Shown here: in pieces, positions 1,721-8,048 of the stretch | Layout of the letters: every line of letters starts with the position of its first letter | How positions within the stretch are numbered: the stretch's first letter is position 1 | From: an uncultured Cellvibrio sp. | GTDB lineage: Bacteria > Pseudomonadota > Gammaproteobacteria > Pseudomonadales > Cellvibrionaceae | Direction: 5' to 3' | NCBI GenBank assembly: GCA_946886255.1 | Contig: CAMPIG010000213.1 | Span: forward strand, 1 to 8,048 | DNA length: 8,048 nucleotides | Notes under the pieces: generated by a model | Told to the model about the DNA's origin: nothing | The model's database searches: none | The model's input: the letters and a program-made list of their open reading frames with translations, nothing else | Program-made: the position numbers and the translations under genes

Positions 1721-1743
1721 AATTTTTTCTCCCTGAAAAAATT
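1721..1743. repeat. AT-rich perfect inverted repeat overlapping the terminator tail
   Basis: AATTTTTTC (1721-1729) and GAAAAAATT (1735-1743) are exact reverse complements around a 5-base spacer. The right arm overlaps the T-tract of the terminator, so the two foldings exclude each other in a read-through transcript. It may be a by-product of A- and T-runs. Confidence 0.6.
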
Positions 1744-1765
1744 TGCCCCGCTTACGCAGGGCAAA
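1736..1765 (-). terminator. Rho-independent terminator of the heme/DUF1501 operon
   Basis: On the minus strand a hairpin with arms TTTGCCC and GGGCAAA (plus two inner G-C pairs around a GTAA loop, one mismatch) is followed directly by six T residues (1741 down to 1736). It begins 20 bases after the TAA of the DUF1501-like gene (1786-1788). The plus strand has no proper T-tract on the other side, so it works in the minus direction only. It separates the three-gene operon from the hydrolase pair. Confidence 0.85.
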
Positions 1766-1785: not shown

Positions 1786-3381
1786 TTAGGTCACCGGTGT
1801 CGATATGGTGCCATTACATATCGGCTGAAACGCGGTGAGACGATCCATCATGGCTGCACTGCCTAAACCATGCGTGGGAAATAGCAGCGGAAACTGGCCT
1901 TGCTCGTTGTGCAAAGCCATGTAATTTAATATCACCATCTCTACCAGCAAGTTCACATTATTGGCGACCGGGCTTGAGGCAGTTTCAACATCACCACTGG
2001 CACGCATGTAGCCAATCTGCTGATGCTGCGCCTGTTCAGCGGCGGTACCACCGATTAATGCCGGACGACCGGCAGGGTTGTACACCAGAAAGAATGAAGA
2101 CGCCGTTTGTTGATCATCACCGGTCCAGACGCCTTTGCCGCGCCCTTCTTCCGACATATCCAACATACCGTTGCTGAACACTGATCCATCACTGAACACA
2201 TAAATCATCAGGGGCACGCCTTTGCGGGCGGCGTACTCCAGACAGGCACCGATACAACGGCCCGCGCGCAGGTCGCGTTGTTCGCCGGTAGAGCGGTCAC
2301 CCGTGTGGTAATCGTAACCACCCATGGTGACGGTGCCGGCACCGGCATAACCCTCTACTACCAACTTCATTACCGAGGCGGTTTTGCGGAATTCACCGTC
2401 GCCATCAAACTCTGCATCACTGAATACACCGGTAGGGCCGACGATATCCGGATCAGCTTCGGGGTTGATGGCGGAAGGATTGCCGAAGCGGTCGGCCAGG
2501 TCAGCACTTTTCACATAACCGCAGCGCATCATTTCTTTCAGGACTTCGTCTTTGGTCGCGCCAGTGCCGGGATTGACGTGATTCAATTTGCTGTCACTGA
2601 TGCGATAGATGGATTCCATCACCGACACGGTATCTTCCTGGCTGAGCAAGCCGACCAGATCACCTACGTCCACCAGGCCGGTCACGTCGCGCGGATTATC
2701 AACTTTAGTCGGCCGCACTTCGGGGTTGATCATCATCGCCGGTGCCATGGAATTACCACCGGAATCACCGGCGCGGGAACCGATCAATGCCAGCAGTGAA
2801 CCGTTGGAGCCAGCACGATTGATACCGTACATGGGGTTGTGAGGGTTGTTGCCGGTGTCATTTTCCGAGCGTGCTGGAATCACTGCGCCATTGGTTGCCG
2901 GCGCTGCGGCGATTGCCTTTTCGAGAATGCCGCGCAGCATCTGACTATCAGAATGGAACGCCAGGCCAAGGTCGGTATTGATGAAGTTACCCACCGATGC
3001 ATTCGGCACCATCTCCGCCGGTAACCCTTGTTTGCTGTACCCACTGGCAGTCAGAAAATCCAGCTGACCGTTTTGTTTGCCTACCAACACGTTGGAACCG
3101 GCGATGTTGGCACCGCCAGCCAAATCAAAACAAATAAAAGGAATCTTACCTGCGCCTTGTGCAGCGATACCGCAGGCATCACGAGCTGCCGAGACATCAG
3201 CAGAAAGCGCCGCTTCAGCTTTGCGCGGATTGGCGAACAAACTGAACACCGAGCCGCCGAGAACCGTACCGAAACCTGCTTTAAAACCCTGCGCAATCAA
3301 TTCACGCCGGGACACCGGCCGCCGGTGGCTGTTGAGGAGCAACGGCGCATCGGGGTGGAGTGGAGGTCTGCGTTTAGCCAT
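1786..3381 (-). CDS. Tat-signal DUF1501-like protein (alkaline phosphatase/sulfatase fold)
   Basis: This 531-residue exported protein starts with an n-region containing twin arginines (SRRELI, Arg25-Arg26), then a moderately hydrophobic stretch (residues 35-50) and a probable cleavage after AEA at 57, which points to export of a folded protein by the Tat system. The mature part has a strand with FDLAGG (85-90), a GGYDYHTGDRS block (354-364) and MIYVFSDGS (392-400). These parallel the metal-site regions of DUF1501 proteins, a branch of the alkaline-phosphatase superfamily, though the usual DTH motif is replaced by DYHTGDR. Homologues are often mis-labelled as secretion pathway proteins. In planctomycetes and other bacteria DUF1501 proteins are encoded next to exported heme proteins, as here. 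ATG 3379-3381 is preceded by AAGGAAA at 3386-3392 with good spacing. It is the last gene of the operon, 72 bases after its upstream neighbour. Substrate and activity are unknown. Confidence 0.82.
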   Translation of the reverse strand: MAKRRPPLHPDAPLLLNSHRRPVSRRELIAQGFKAGFGTVLGGSVFSLFANPRKAEAALSADVSAARDACGIAAQGAGKIPFICFDLAGGANIAGSNVLVGKQNGQLDFLTASGYSKQGLPAEMVPNASVGNFINTDLGLAFHSDSQMLRGILEKAIAAAPATNGAVIPARSENDTGNNPHNPMYGINRAGSNGSLLALIGSRAGDSGGNSMAPAMMINPEVRPTKVDNPRDVTGLVDVGDLVGLLSQEDTVSVMESIYRISDSKLNHVNPGTGATKDEVLKEMMRCGYVKSADLADRFGNPSAINPEADPDIVGPTGVFSDAEFDGDGEFRKTASVMKLVVEGYAGAGTVTMGGYDYHTGDRSTGEQRDLRAGRCIGACLEYAARKGVPLMIYVFSDGSVFSNGMLDMSEEGRGKGVWTGDDQQTASSFFLVYNPAGRPALIGGTAAEQAQHQQIGYMRASGDVETASSPVANNVNLLVEMVILNYMALHNEQGQFPLLFPTHGLGSAAMMDRLTAFQPICNGTISTPVT

Positions 3382-3453
3382 GGTATTTCCTTCGCTACTG
3401 GGTATCGTAGTCGTTGTGTCGTAATCGTTTATAAGCCTGAAGGCTGAGCCTCG

Positions 3454-6000
3454 TTATTGGAGCAGCATCACAGCGCCGCCGAATGCCGCCGCGCAGGTTG
3501 CCATCACCACATCTGTGGTGCCGGTACTGCCCGCTGTCATTCGATCAATCAGCTGATTTAACTCCAACCGCAATTCATCCGGGTCAGCCTGGACATCCAA
3601 CTTGCTGCCATCAATTTCATGGGCCAATAATTTTTCAAGCAAGGGTTCAATAACCTGTTCGCGACCCGTGACGGTGAAAGCGGCACCCGGTGCTGCACCG
3701 AAATTAAAGCCGGGGAAGAAACTGGTCCGGCGACTGGTGTCATTAACCAGCGCATTGCAATAAGACACCGTCAGCTGCGTCACCCCCATCTGATGGGCGG
3801 CCAGGAAGCCTTCCATATTGGGAACCGTGGGTAATTGTTGCTGCACATTGGTGTAAGTTGCAGCCACGGCAGTGGCAGTAGCCGGTACCGTTGTCAGGGT
3901 GGACAAGGTCGCATTGATTTCCGCAAAGGTACGCAGGCCAATCACAGCCTGACCTTCTACGTCAGACGGCGCTACCGGCGAAGGTACGCCAGGCTCGGGG
4001 CGCTCATAACTGTGGGTGCCGATGCGATCAAAAGTCAGGAAAAATTCATCCAGATCCGGGCCGCGTTTGGCTTCGACAACTGTACCCAAGTTCGACAGTA
4101 CTTGCCGCCCTTCAATCATCTGATCCTGCCGTAATTCGGTACTCAGGTTGGCAAACACTTGTCCCACCATCACCTCGGCACCGTTGATGCCGATGCGGAT
4201 ACCCTCAAGATCAACGCCACCATTCATTTGAGCGGTCGTACCGGTTTCCGGGTCTGCAAGAATGGTGAAAAACGGCTGGTTAAACAGGTAGCCAAAATCA
4301 TCAAACTGCTGCACTTCAAACACAATAAAGCTGAGCGGCACATCGATCAGTTCGGAAATGTTGAACAGCAACAGGTAGCGCGCGCCCACCCCCACTTCGA
4401 AATTTTTCACGATGTCTTCTGCGGCCATGGCCCGATTGTGGATACCGAGGAAGCGAATGCTGCCTTGCCACATACGGTTGTTCGAAGTTTCGTTACCTAC
4501 CACCAATGCATAGCTATCGTTCCAATCAGCCAACACAGCGCCCGGTGTCGGATCTTCATCGCCGGTATATTCGCCGTTGACATAGATGCGGCGACCATTC
4601 ACGGGATCAAAGGTAGCCACCACATGCTGCAGTGTGGCTTGCAGACGTTCGTCATTATCGGCAGTGGCCAACTCAACCAGGCCATTGGCATCGCTCAGAT
4701 TGGTGCGATTCATAAAGCTGTAGTTGTAGTTGTACTGCCCAAGGGTGAAGTTGCGTTCGGTTGCCGTGCCCGAGAGACTGACAATGCGTGCGGGGTTATT
4801 ATCGTTATCACCTTGGGCGACGTTATCGGGAATAACCCAGGCTTCGATACTGTATTCCCCGGCACCGCGAATCAGGTTATAGATTTTGCGGCTGCTGCCA
4901 GCTGATGCCTGGGCTTTGCCACCGTCGTTGAAGCGAACACCCCAGGCGCTGCTCCAGCCCACATTACCGAACAGGTTCAGGTTGGTGGCTGGCTCCACGC
5001 CGCTGGTATCGTATGCGATGGTGCCGGTGCCGGTTTTAAATTCGTATTTGGCGATAAGGTCGGTATCGATGCGACCGCCGCTACTGACGACGAACGCATC
5101 AGCCAGACCAACCGCTTTACTCATGATCAGATCTTCATCGATCACTGTCGACTCAATGGTGTCAGCGAACGCCTGGATAGCATTGCGCATGGCAGTCGCG
5201 CTGGCCGCACAATCGTTATCCCAGCAGTTATGGAAATCTGTCCCCAGACGCTGTACAAACCGCGAAGCGCCTGGATTGTCTAACCGCATACGCGCCTTGG
5301 CAGCGTCATAAGCCACAGCAACATCGGTACTACTGAAATAGGGTTGTTGACGGGTGATCGCGCCTTCCGCATGGCAGCTGCCGCAATATTCGGTCAACAG
5401 TGGGTAAACGGTGGAGGTGAAACCGGCGGGGGAATCAGGGAAACTCTTACTGTCACTGACATCGCGCTCTTCGGGCGGTGTCAGGACGATGGAATTCGCT
5501 TCGGTTCCGCTGTTTTCTGCCCATGCAGCAATCCAGGTGGTGATGATATCGCCGCATACAACCGGATCAGCTTCCCAGCAGTTGTGCCCACCGACCACAC
5601 GGCTCACCAGACGCGACATGGAAGGGTTACCCAAATCCACTAAACCGTTGTCAATTACCGCCGCGTAGGCAAGATTGATGTCATCCCCTCGGGCAAAGGT
5701 CGGTTGCTGACCATTATCACCATGACAACTACCGCAGCGATCTGGCGGCGCGATATTGACCCACAGACGTGTCTGGAACTTGAGCACATCGTCAGTGGCA
5801 GCCGGATTAGTGCCTTTGTAAACGAAGTCGTCGTTTGTTCCGCCATTATTGGGTGGTGGTTCCGTAACGGTATCGGCACCGCTGCCAGAACCACCACAAC
5901 CCGCCAATGCCAGCAAGGTGGTGAAAAGCAGCGAGAGCACAAGCAGCCCTGGGCGGTAGTGACCGCGAGAGTTGAAATTTTGTTGGCTCATTGTGTCCAC
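3454..6000 (-). CDS. Di-heme c-type lipoprotein with LamG-like domain
   Basis: This 848-residue protein begins with a lipoprotein signal ending in LALAGC (Cys35); Gly follows, so outer-membrane anchoring is expected. Two similar c-type cytochrome modules follow. The first has CGSCH at 89-93 and a distal HNCW...C (141, 149); the second has CGSCH at 206-210 and HNCW...C (259, 264). Residues about 312-535 form a LamG/concanavalin-like jelly roll (KYEF, YSIEAWV, LQHVVATFD, RIYVNGEY, WQGSIRFLGIHNRAM), typical of carbohydrate or surface binding. Residues 540-848 match nothing I recognise. The start is GTG (5998-6000) with AGG at 6009-6011; an ATG three codons later is the alternative. The protein probably carries electrons at the cell surface and binds a partner or polymer through LamG. 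It is the middle gene of the operon and lies 74 bases downstream of the mono-heme protein gene. Confidence 0.88.
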   Translation of the reverse strand: MDTMSQQNFNSRGHYRPGLLVLSLLFTTLLALAGCGGSGSGADTVTEPPPNNGGTNDDFVYKGTNPAATDDVLKFQTRLWVNIAPPDRCGSCHGDNGQQPTFARGDDINLAYAAVIDNGLVDLGNPSMSRLVSRVVGGHNCWEADPVVCGDIITTWIAAWAENSGTEANSIVLTPPEERDVSDSKSFPDSPAGFTSTVYPLLTEYCGSCHAEGAITRQQPYFSSTDVAVAYDAAKARMRLDNPGASRFVQRLGTDFHNCWDNDCAASATAMRNAIQAFADTIESTVIDEDLIMSKAVGLADAFVVSSGGRIDTDLIAKYEFKTGTGTIAYDTSGVEPATNLNLFGNVGWSSAWGVRFNDGGKAQASAGSSRKIYNLIRGAGEYSIEAWVIPDNVAQGDNDNNPARIVSLSGTATERNFTLGQYNYNYSFMNRTNLSDANGLVELATADNDERLQATLQHVVATFDPVNGRRIYVNGEYTGDEDPTPGAVLADWNDSYALVVGNETSNNRMWQGSIRFLGIHNRAMAAEDIVKNFEVGVGARYLLLFNISELIDVPLSFIVFEVQQFDDFGYLFNQPFFTILADPETGTTAQMNGGVDLEGIRIGINGAEVMVGQVFANLSTELRQDQMIEGRQVLSNLGTVVEAKRGPDLDEFFLTFDRIGTHSYERPEPGVPSPVAPSDVEGQAVIGLRTFAEINATLSTLTTVPATATAVAATYTNVQQQLPTVPNMEGFLAAHQMGVTQLTVSYCNALVNDTSRRTSFFPGFNFGAAPGAAFTVTGREQVIEPLLEKLLAHEIDGSKLDVQADPDELRLELNQLIDRMTAGSTGTTDVVMATCAAAFGGAVMLLQ

Positions 6001-6008
6001 GGTATTTA

Positions 6009-6011
6009 CCT
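6009..6011 (-). promoter_or_regulatory. Ribosome binding site supporting the GTG start at 6000
   Basis: AGG on the minus strand lies 8 bases before GTG (5998-6000) but 17 bases before the in-frame ATG (5989-5991). The spacing favours GTG. The following AAATACC(G/A)TG context is shared with the leader of the DUF1501-like gene. Confidence 0.5.
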
Positions 6012-6028
6012 GATGTTTTTAATCTTGG

Positions 6029-6050
6029 GCCGGTTGCCTACAGCACCGGC
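6029..6050 (-). other. Intercistronic RNA hairpin
   Basis: GCCGGT and ACCGGC form a perfect 6-bp stem, extended by two G-C pairs past one bulged base, with a 5-base loop. It sits in the 74-base gap between the first two operon genes and is not followed by a T-tract, so it is not a standard terminator. Such hairpins can stabilise the upstream message after processing or adjust the ratio of the two products; that role is inferred. Confidence 0.5.
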
Positions 6051-6074
6051 ATTCCCACGTCTGGCGGCTCTGGA

Positions 6075-7328
6075 TCAGGGCCCTTTGCAATAATCAGCGG
6101 TCTCGATAAACACCTGCTTCAGGTTGTAACCACTGCTGGCAAAGCTATCGGTAATAGCCTCAAGCTCCGCGCGATCAGTAGCATCGGCAGGACGGCGCAG
6201 ACAGACATTGCGAAATACTTTTTCTACCTGACAGTGGGCAAAAGCCCGGCTGTGAGCCAGTTCCATACCCATGGTTTTTGCGCCGTTGCCAGTACCGGAA
6301 AGCCCGGCATCCCAACCCAGCGCTGCGTTCTGGCCTTTACGCCAATAGTTCTGCCACTGGTCGTTCGGCGTGACAAAGCCATAACGGAAAGTCGAGGAGT
6401 TAATGTGATATTTCTTCTCTACCCGACTGTTGGTATCCGGGTCGATATCCGCTTCGGTGTTGTAGTGGATACTGCCATTGAGGCCTTCCGGGTCAGCGTC
6501 AATATCAAATTCATAGTCGTAATAAGCGAATGCCTGAGCCATGGGGTCCATGCCGTTGTGGCAACCGATGCAGCTGTTCAGGAAGACGCGACTATCACCG
6601 CCGGGACTGCGGCTGACATCCTGGCGAATACGGTCCGGCACCAGAGACGTGTCATGCACTTGCTCCAGGTCACGGCAGAGGTGGTTTAGCAGGGTGAAAC
6701 GAAACATGGCGCGGTTCGTACCGGCAATAAAAAATGCCTTGGCTGCTGCGCGGGTGGTCAGCACACCGGAGGTGGCATTGGCTGGCAAATTGTTAACAGA
6801 AGACTGGGCACGGCGGATCAAGGTGTTCTTTAAACTGTGACCTGCAGTTTCCAGTGCTTCATAGTGGTTATTGTTGTTATTGGCATAGGCGGGCAAACCG
6901 CCTGCGTTGCTGGTATAGAGCACGTCGTCATAGAGGATCTTGCGGAAGTCATCTTCATCGCGCACCAGACCAATAAAGGTGGCGGTGTAGTCATTCAGTG
7001 GCGCGAAGACGGTTTGTTCGCGATTGGTCCAGGGTGTGGCCATATTCTTGAGTGTAACGCTGTAGAAGGCTTCGTTATCCATCGCCACTTCGACAGCACC
7101 CGCTACGTCATTGGTGCTGATAAGATTGGCCATCTGCAAGAGTACGGCTTCTGAGGGCGGTACCCCGGCAATGCGATTGTGTATTTGCAATGCCTGTTCC
7201 CGGGGACCGGCCAGAGCGATGGACGCAAACAGGGAAACCAGCAATAGGGCACCGGACATCATTCGGCGATGCGCAGAAGGAAGCCATCCGGCAGGTCTGC
7301 CAGATGAAAAAAAGGCTTGTGTGGTCAC
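6075..7328 (-). CDS. Exported mono-heme protein, DUF1592/DUF1588/DUF1585-like
   Basis: This 417-residue protein has a long basic n-region, a hydrophobic segment (residues 25-40) and a likely cleavage after ALA at 40. A block near 205-270 (NRAMFRFTLLNHLC ... FLNSCIGCHNGMDP) carries one c-type heme motif, CIGCH at 253-257, and recalls the DUF1588 region with its C-x-x-CH-x-x-MD signature. The C-terminal part (AFAHCQVEKVFRNVC, 362-376) resembles DUF1585, and the N-terminal part may be a short DUF1592-like region. Cys218, 366, 376 and 414 are further cysteines that could form disulfides. Planctomycete relatives are usually much longer, so this is a compact form. The start is GTG (7326-7328), chosen because GGAG stands 5 bases upstream; the ATG at codon 23 has no comparable site. 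It is the first gene of the operon. It probably acts in the periplasm in electron transfer or oxidation of an unknown substrate. Confidence 0.82.
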   Translation of the reverse strand: MTTQAFFSSGRPAGWLPSAHRRMMSGALLLVSLFASIALAGPREQALQIHNRIAGVPPSEAVLLQMANLISTNDVAGAVEVAMDNEAFYSVTLKNMATPWTNREQTVFAPLNDYTATFIGLVRDEDDFRKILYDDVLYTSNAGGLPAYANNNNNHYEALETAGHSLKNTLIRRAQSSVNNLPANATSGVLTTRAAAKAFFIAGTNRAMFRFTLLNHLCRDLEQVHDTSLVPDRIRQDVSRSPGGDSRVFLNSCIGCHNGMDPMAQAFAYYDYEFDIDADPEGLNGSIHYNTEADIDPDTNSRVEKKYHINSSTFRYGFVTPNDQWQNYWRKGQNAALGWDAGLSGTGNGAKTMGMELAHSRAFAHCQVEKVFRNVCLRRPADATDRAELEAITDSFASSGYNLKQVFIETADYCKGP

Positions 7329-7333
7329 GGCTG

Positions 7334-7337
7334 CTCC
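7334..7337 (-). promoter_or_regulatory. Ribosome binding site supporting the GTG start at 7328
   Basis: GGAG on the minus strand stands 5 bases before the GTG at 7326-7328. This is the best Shine-Dalgarno match near the N-terminus and decides the GTG over the internal ATG codons. Confidence 0.65.
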
Positions 7338-7355
7338 AGATTTTTGTTCTGCCTC

Positions 7356-7371
7356 GACTGAAAAATCAGTC
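7356..7371. repeat. Short perfect hairpin in the operon leader
   Basis: GACTGA and TCAGTC are exact reverse complements around a 4-base A/T loop. If the TATAAT further upstream is used, this hairpin lies in the 5' leader about 19 bases before the ribosome binding site. It could be an RNA element or a second protein site, or chance. Confidence 0.4.
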
Positions 7372-7384
7372 TAGCAGGCTAATT

Positions 7385-7412
7385 GTTCGGCAATGATTAT
7401 ATGTCGCCGAAC
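7385..7412 (-). promoter_or_regulatory. Candidate operon promoter inside a palindromic operator
   Basis: On the minus strand a consensus TATAAT (7396-7401) lies about 68 bases before the GTG start of the operon's first gene. It is flanked by perfect 7-bp arms GTTCGGC and GCCGAAC (7385-7391 and 7406-7412) with a 14-base spacer. No good -35 stands 17 bases upstream (CAGGTT at 7419-7424), which suggests an activator-dependent or otherwise controlled promoter. A dimeric regulator bound to the arms would cover the -10. The regulator is not in the window. Confidence 0.5.
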
Positions 7413-7772
7413 GGTATAAACCTGTGGCTCGCTTGCATCCACATTGTCGACCGGTTCACAGATTCGTTAATACGCGCCACCTTCGGTGCTGCTCCGCCAT
7501 CGACGAAACAGCCAGAAGCATAGAATTCAGCTATTTTTAGAAGCCAGCTTGTTGCAGAAATCTGTTTGAAAGGTATTTGGCAACGGTTGTGAAAGCGTGA
7601 CCAGATCGAGAGATTGGCGCCAAGCCTTATCTGAGAATGTGGCTCCGTGCGGCGACATTCCATTCAGCCGCCAGCGTCCACCGGACATCGGCCGGCAATA
7701 ACGACTCGCGGCAATTGACTGCCATGATTGAGCTATCATCCCCAACCCGTTTCTTGTGCAGGGCAAAACGCC
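7413..7772. other. Intergenic region without a convincing gene
   Basis: Short minus-strand frames in this stretch lack ribosome binding sites and give unremarkable residue composition, and none resembles a known family. No tRNA, terminator or insertion sequence end was found. A 10-bp palindrome TTGGCGCCAA is at 7614-7623. The promoter of the plus-strand lipoprotein must lie here or at its right end, but no convincing -35/-10 pair was identified. Confidence 0.55.
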
Positions 7773-8048
7773 ATGATCCACCATCTCCGTTTATCGCTTA
7801 TACACAGCTCGCCTCTGTGGCTTGTCTGCTTGTTGGTTACCGCCTGCGGAGGCGGAGGTGGCGGCAGTGAGGGCGGCGGCCAAAGTCCGGACCCGGTCAC
7901 AGTGGACTTGCCGGTGGCGTTTATTGATCGTCCCTTGCCGACCGATGAAGACGACCCTGAAACCTTGCTGCCCCTGGATATTCTCGACCCGGCCGCCTTT
8001 AACCCCGGTGCCGAAATTTTTGTAAAACCTCGTGCTACGGCGCTGGCC
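7773..8048 (+). CDS. Lipoprotein N-terminus, PD40/hydrazine-synthase-alpha-like (partial)
   Basis: The frame is open for 92 codons from ATG 7773 to the right edge. The first 25 residues form a lipoprotein signal with lipobox VTAC (Cys25), followed by a glycine-rich linker (GGGGGG, SEGGGQ). The next segment, VAFIDRPLPTDEDD and then FNPGAEIFV, resembles the start of large PD40-repeat lipoproteins related to the hydrazine synthase alpha subunit; this is from memory and needs the missing part. Gly after the Cys suggests the outer membrane. AGGG (7760-7763) lies 9 bases before the ATG. The gene is divergent from the heme/DUF1501 operon and probably works with it. The ATG is the natural start because it gives a complete signal peptide. 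A TolB-like propeller would be expected downstream. Confidence 0.8.
   Translation, partial: MIHHLRLSLIHSSPLWLVCLLVTACGGGGGGSEGGGQSPDPVTVDLPVAFIDRPLPTDEDDPETLLPLDILDPAAFNPGAEIFVKPRATALA

Follow-up and report, generated by a model that had tools for sequence, protein, structure and literature searches.

A conserved gammaproteobacterial gene cluster of heme, LamG and Tat-exported proteins associated with a TolQR-GltG core

The Agl/Glt-like core of gammaproteobacteria was described by Luciano et al. (2011, PMC3169522) as a 'complex of unknown function', and motility through the core alone was judged unlikely by the same authors; no mention of a cytochrome, a lectin or a DUF was found in the main text of that paper. 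Agl motors are reported to carry different surface cargo in the Agl-Glt and Agl-Nfs systems, and the core to stand alone in many gammaproteobacteria (PMC3858216, 2013). Clusters of ApbE, DUF3570, thioredoxin and DUF4266 genes were described in 2021 with a function that 'remains uncertain', and flavinylation of DUF3570 by ApbE was shown experimentally for Chlorobium luteolum (PMC8238504); LamG, gliding and Gammaproteobacteria were not found in the main text of that report. The alpha subunit of hydrazine synthase has Tyr591 as ligand of heme alpha-I (PMC12607021, PMC12758564). Its homologues are reported from Planctomycetota and Desulfobacterota, and no mention of Gammaproteobacteria was found in the main text describing them (PMC12758564).

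The locus analyzed here shares parts with each of these systems. Its relatives carry the same TolQ, two TolR, GltG-type protein with AgmX/PglI C-terminus and TPR proteins as the Agl/Glt-like core, but here these genes are linked to an outer-membrane module with hemes and flavin (compare PMC3169522 and PMC3858216). As in the ApbE-DUF3570 clusters (eLife 2021, PMC8238504), we found ApbE, DUF3570 with a D..S[GS]AS site and a thioredoxin-like protein, as well as DUF4266 with a terminal CXC in 2 loci (L093 and L094); unlike in those clusters, the neighbors that were family-searched gave no DsbD match beyond a weak overlap of ResA, and the genes stand together with the trio, the HzsA-like gene and those of the motor. 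The HzsA-like protein follows the order of propeller, CxxCH middle and C-terminal stretches seen in hydrazine synthase alpha (5c2v), but is a lipoprotein and lacks the heme alpha-I tyrosine. Finally, the locus has c-type heme, LamG and PSD2 (DUF1585) parts in common with planctomycete and verrucomicrobial PSCyt-PSD proteins bearing LamG, a likeness to planctomycete DUF1501/cytochrome pairs having been pointed out in an earlier note on this DNA and that to planctomycete PSCyt/LamG clusters being borne out here, except that the parts are spread over separate smaller proteins and the Tat partner has no PF07394 match. No description of the combined gene set was found in the titles and abstracts of the open-licence literature searched.

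Gene layout and conservation in relatives

The window, which is the whole 8,048-nucleotide stretch analyzed, from an uncultured Cellvibrio sp., contains three co-directional genes and a divergent fourth, and all four reading frames lie where the earlier note had placed them (Table 1). On the minus strand, the trio is ordered DUF1588-like, LamG, Tat protein, and its genes are separated by 72 and 74 bases. By eye, the true start of the DUF1588-like protein is likely MMSGALL at 7262. The HzsA-like gene has an ATG at 7773 and a VTAC lipobox at 7836-7847. A search of the divergent intergenic region for a sigma-70-like site found none, and terminator-like sites such as the hairpin following the trio numbered 7 across the region, compared to 6.9 expected by chance.

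Table 1. Features of the cluster, with positions counted from the first base of the window
Feature	Position	Strand	Basis or remark
Hairpin and T-run, terminator-like	1742..1765	-	10 pairs, six T; 20 bases beyond the last trio gene
Tat-type exported protein, 531 aa	1786..3381	-	ORF; alkaline-phosphatase-like predicted fold; 'DUF1501-like' in the earlier note
GGYDYH motif of Tat protein	2305..2322	-	GxxDxH form in 7/10 PF07394 proteins
SRREL twin-arginine signal of Tat protein	3298..3312	-	Motif
LamG di-heme lipoprotein, 848 aa	3454..6000	-	ORF, Pfam, motifs
Heme site 2 of LamG protein, CGSCH	5371..5385	-	Motif
Heme site 1 of LamG protein, CGSCH	5722..5736	-	Motif
Lipobox LALAGC of LamG protein	5896..5913	-	Motif
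Mono-heme exported DUF1588/1585-like protein, 417 aa	6075..7328	-	ORF, Pfam, motif
Heme site of DUF1588-like protein, CIGCH	6558..6572	-	Motif
Divergent intergenic region separating both arms, 399 bases	7329..7727		ORF borders
HzsA-like lipoprotein N-terminus, open at window end	7728..8048	+	ORF; profile evidence from relatives

The first 1,700 bases of the window have a G+C content of ~0.44-0.46, compared to 0.53-0.57 in the cluster. The esterase-like gene they contain (395-1609) lies near the cluster in only 1 of the best 80 of 549 relatives' loci, and the next gene in 0/80. Based on its lower G+C and the rarity of the esterase-like gene, this flank does not seem to belong to the system.

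Lack of joint conservation had been named beforehand as an observation that would refute a system. A scan of contigs for relatives of the Tat protein gave 549, of which the best 80 loci were retained. Within these 80, a LamG gene was nearby in 79, a DUF1588-like gene in 77 and the PD40-like N-terminus of the divergent gene in 71. The single LamG miss and the 3 DUF1588 misses were all contig ends; 4 of the 9 PD40 misses were likewise contig ends, and the other 5 loci do contain the ORF. Co-location of the four genes is far above chance, and the result went against refutation. Hosts of these 80 loci include Gilvimarinus, Cellvibrio, Microbulbifer, Marinimicrobium, Paraglaciecola, Aliikangiella, Chromatiaceae MAGs and tubeworm endosymbionts. 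With the motifs present and the neighborhood recurring in relatives, the earlier picture of an exported, heme-rich gammaproteobacterial system stands, but that of a compact four-gene unit does not: the four genes are the visible part of a locus that reaches 18 genes (L093 with L063). Counts of labelled ORFs given below are lower bounds, as ORF calling was crude (longest first, 30% overlap) and chose the wrong frame in some loci, e.g. L016, L022, L039, L098 and L170.

Divergent trios lacking an adjoining HzsA arm occur in five regions (L153, L154, L156, L157 and L158). The LamG-like protein in the last four of these has one CxxCH, and their host genomes also carry a GltG-type gene.

Proteins of the trio and the divergent arm

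The mono-heme protein had been labelled DUF1588/1585-like. DUF1585 (PF07624) scored 26.8 bits, barely above its cut-off of 25.8, while DUF1588 (PF07627) scored 13.9 bits and remained under its cut-off of 27. LamG domain PF13385 (Pfam E 5.7e-16) and the lipobox confirmed the 848-aa product as a LamG lipoprotein, and the heme counts were likewise as described, with one CxxCH in the 417-aa protein and two in the LamG protein. In relatives, a single CxxCH was present in 72/72 DUF1588-like ORFs and two in 74/76 LamG-protein ORFs, 60 of the 76 having a lipobox pattern.

The description of the Tat protein as DUF1501-like is backed by its predicted fold and the common GxxDxH motif, but not by sequence comparison. 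A Pfam search of the window protein returned no family match, 0/44 members of the Tat-family alignment (window included) matched PF07394 (DUF1501), and the only match found by hhalign between the family and 10 PF07394 proteins was the Tat signal. Moreover, the DH motif present in 10/10 of those proteins is absent from the window protein. Within the family itself, [ST]RRx[FLI] signals occur in 67/74 ORFs and GG[YFW]DxH in 74/74. The predicted fold is that of the alkaline phosphatase superfamily (sulfatases, ENPP, iPGM), at an identity of 6-13%. Of the 120 database relatives listed, 10 are annotated as 'general secretion pathway protein GspF'. We rejected this identity, as a type II secretion F domain was absent from the Pfam matches of the 44 alignment members; the label is a misannotation that has spread.

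The divergent gene had been taken for a PD40-like lipoprotein. Its exported lipoprotein N-terminus was confirmed, but what the window holds is actually the start of an HzsA-like protein that has two hemes in relatives, where the full-length product has a median of 907 residues, two CxxCH in 71/74 ORFs and a lipobox pattern in 62/74. The hydrazine synthase alpha middle domain (PF18582) was matched in one relative (L002) with 51 bits (cut-off 26.6, E 2.3e-13), and a profile of the divergent protein matched hydrazine synthase alpha (PDB 5c2v_A) with E 1.1e-11. This alignment consists of three collinear stretches, namely propeller, CxxCH middle domain and C-terminal part, only the middle one being strong and the other two weak. 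Of the 72 divergent ORFs with a first CxxCH, none has a tyrosine at His+4 or anywhere in the 8 residues that follow this heme site.

Beyond the HzsA-like gene, ORF clustering of the 80 loci identified an SH3-plus-barrel protein in at least 68, a second barrel in at least 68, a ResA-like thioredoxin in at least 59 and DUF3570 in at least 66; ApbE was labelled in at least 24. Family matches on these neighbors were OMP_myx_plus, ResA-like, DUF4266, DUF3570 and ApbE, so the gene set of flavinylation systems (ApbE, DUF3570, DUF4266 and a thioredoxin-like gene) is present together. A search of the same neighbors for the DsbD family found none, apart from ResA overlapping weakly through its thioredoxin domain. 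A small lipoprotein with C-terminus CGCN lies between ResA and DUF3570 in L093 and L094; that of L093 is DUF4266 (E 8.8e-23), giving the order ResA-DUF4266-DUF3570 in both loci, and ApbE is unlabelled in both stretches. DUF3570 adjoins ApbE in L172, L178 and L179. The strict flavinylation site [ST]GA[ST] occurs in 29/66 DUF3570 ORFs, most others reading SSAS, and the relaxed pattern D..[ST][GSA]AS in 63/66.

The TolQR-GltG core and its co-occurrence with the cluster

Locus L059 displays the order TPR-TPR-TPR-TolQ-TolR-TolR-GltG-ApbE with family support. TolQ (E 8.6e-21) and the two TolR (E 8.8e-9 and 2.4e-6) all score below their equivalog cut-offs; they are therefore homologous to, but not, Tol-Pal itself. 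The GltG-type AgmX/PglI C-terminus matched NF033768 with 65.3 bits (cut-off 40), and the exported core TPR proteins, candidate counterparts of GltC, GltD and GltE, have clear TPR domains, with a match to the GltE model (E 1.7e-10) that falls below its cut-off. Downstream of the trio, the 80 loci contain TPR642, the first core TPR gene, in at least 31, TPR960 in at least 30 and TPR221 in at least 27. TolQ, TolR and GltG were labelled in at least 18, 15 and 16 loci, respectively; these lower counts, and that of ApbE, are at least partly due to locus ends and crude ORF calling.

In both Alteromonadaceae checked, Paraglaciecola arctica and an Aliiglaciecola, the core directly follows DUF3570 and 18 genes form one stretch. 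In 17/17 regions chosen for having the genes on a common contig, core genes accompany the trio, the HzsA arm or both, and can stand at either end; unrelated ORFs intervene in one of the 17 (L175). Since the core can adjoin the cluster on either side, and further orientations occur in L151 and L152, the linkage probably arose more than once. In the nearest kin of the window, the core lies 150 kb away in Cellvibrio mixtus and ~53 kb away in Gilvimarinus algae, and on a separate contig in Cellvibrio UBA7671 and G. chinensis.

The GltG type was above cut-off in 8/8 cluster genomes and 0/14 controls, 2 of which match weakly. We then counted gene presence in 369 gammaproteobacterial genomes, ignoring kinship: the Tat protein was present in 50, the GltG type above cut-off in 85, the HzsA-like protein in 51 and PF07394 in 58. 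The GltG type occurred in 47/50 Tat-positive compared to 38/319 other genomes (odds ratio 116, p 3.5e-32, uncorrected for kinship) and in 48/51 HzsA-like-positive genomes, and the HzsA-like protein in 44/50 Tat-positive genomes. For the ordinary DUF1501 control (PF07394) there was no clear link (GltG type in 19/58, odds ratio 1.8, p 0.06). The genetic association between trio, HzsA arm and core is strong. Tat and GltG genes are within 30 kb of each other on one contig in 18/50 genomes, many genomes being fragmented.

Three Tat-positive genomes lack the GltG type: G075, which has a long TPR protein on another contig, G009, represented by a contig-end fragment only, and G042. The HzsA-like-positive genomes without it are G042, G075 and G195. 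The trio of G042 looks intact (L147:8435-10255), and no TPR960 or GltG match was found there. Its HzsA-like gene is split by intervening stops into two ORFs (332 and 235 aa), which match only residues 49-487 of 908; we read this as decay of the HzsA arm where the core is missing.

The core must have other uses, since 38 genomes carry it without the Tat protein, 32 of them also without the HzsA-like protein. Of 40 core regions in these 38 genomes, 4 have the HzsA arm and DUF3570, with ApbE beside all 4; core and HzsA arm without trio are seen in L109, L118, L120 and L125, and L132 has barrels, ResA and DUF3570 without HzsA. In 10 Tat-negative core regions with listed ORFs the other neighbors look unrelated by eye, L106 having been family-searched. 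Judged from this distribution, the core looks to be the widest module, to which the thiol/flavin/HzsA arm was added and then the trio.

In L106:2229-15779, TolQ-TolR-TolR-GltG is not accompanied by TPR genes and comes after genes of a type VI secretion system (VasE/TssK, IcmF/TssM, TagF, PP2C and a kinase). ORF sizes, which alone were compared, are similar in L108 and L115.

A proposed envelope machine and competing explanations

The association of known parts is real and widely conserved, and its genetics are strong. From gene content, linkage, heme, lipoprotein and Tat motifs and co-occurrence, we infer that the four window proteins are the redox or surface head of a motor-coupled envelope machine, all belonging to one larger gammaproteobacterial system, and put the odds at about even (~0.5). 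Electron flow, outer-membrane location, motor coupling and substrate are the deduced parts of this proposal. The remainder of the machine, as seen in relatives, would comprise the two outer-membrane barrels, the ResA-like thioredoxin, the CXC protein DUF4266, the barrel protein DUF3570, ApbE and the proton-driven core. Electrons may pass to or from the outer membrane through the thiol pair and the FMN of DUF3570; in a thiol, flavin, heme order, the heme groups in the HzsA-like, DUF1588-like and LamG proteins would extend the chain at or across that membrane. The LamG and phosphatase-fold parts may act on a surface polymer by binding or processing it, and the surface head may be moved, gated or assembled by the TolQR-GltG motor.

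A more specific version, which we consider tentative and rather less likely, is that an Agl/Glt/Tol-type motor powered by the proton motive force (pmf) drives a redox device at the outer membrane, its strokes being transmitted via GltG, the TPR proteins and the two barrels. Equally tentatively, the head so moved or gated would bear FMN and five c-type hemes and would oxidize or reduce a surface polymer or an outside acceptor. Several findings speak against a single machine: the core is non-adjacent in the four nearest kin, 38 core genomes lack the Tat protein, some trios lack the HzsA arm, the strict DUF3570 site occurs in only 29/66 ORFs, ApbE was labelled in only 24/80 loci, and G042 has a trio without core.

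The competing explanation that survives best, although we regard it as somewhat unlikely, is surface polymer degradation similar to that of planctomycete/verrucomicrobial PSCyt-LamG-sulfatase clusters, with a flavin/heme oxidative step and the core incidental. The LamG domain (PF13385), DUF1585 and the predicted phosphatase/sulfatase-type fold are consistent with this explanation, as are the PSCyt genes with pfam13385 and sulfatase neighbors reported from Verrucomicrobia (PMC5615132). However, the cluster is also found in tubeworm endosymbionts and Chromatiaceae MAGs, no glycosidase or sulfatase was found among the family-searched neighbors (ORF clusters 16-25 lying outside that search), and the Tat family is not PF07394, the window protein lacking the DH motif of all 10 PF07394 proteins.

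We likewise consider it unlikely, and slightly more so, that motor core and heme cluster are separate systems whose common hosts and adjacency reflect common descent. Their non-adjacency in all four genomes examined from Cellvibrio and Gilvimarinus fits this idea, as does the core without Tat or HzsA-like protein in 32/369 genomes, which are related and were counted without kinship correction. Against it stand the joining of the core to either end of the cluster, together with the further orientations in L151 and L152, the 47/50 co-occurrence compared to a control without clear association, and the four intermediates that have core and HzsA arm but no trio.

Less probable still is a gliding or adhesion machine, in which the trio and the HzsA-like lipoprotein would be the adhesin part of Glt-like motility. 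The core does resemble Agl/Glt, and Agl-Glt and Agl-Nfs carry surface cargo (PMC3858216), but an adhesin would not be expected to have five hemes and a flavin relay, and Luciano et al. judged core-alone motility unlikely (PMC3169522). A nitrogen-cycle enzyme of the hydrazine synthase type is highly improbable, since despite the PF18582 and 5c2v_A matches (E 2.3e-13 and 1.1e-11) the counterpart of Tyr591 is missing in 72/72 ORFs with the first heme site.

Under the envelope-machine reading, the gammaproteobacterial Agl/Glt-like core gains a testable partner set of hemes, flavin, thiols and a LamG fold, and the DUF3570 flavin system gains a candidate heme chain and motor. If true, its pmf-motor version would represent a previously undescribed kind of energized outer-membrane redox machine. 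Since the cluster occurs in genera with cultured strains (Microbulbifer, Cellvibrio and Gilvimarinus), deletions could be attempted.

Two further small proteins accompany the core. A conserved protein of ~180 aa (hyp179), with no Pfam match, is first in the core cluster of L059 (11587-12117). Between the last TPR gene and TolQ lies a small protein that looks exported and has an I[VI]PW motif (L093:12138-12425, whose product has no Pfam match, and L094:8509-8916); an ORF with the motif is present in 35 of the fetched loci of at least 5 kb, and it is possibly an unlisted component of the core.
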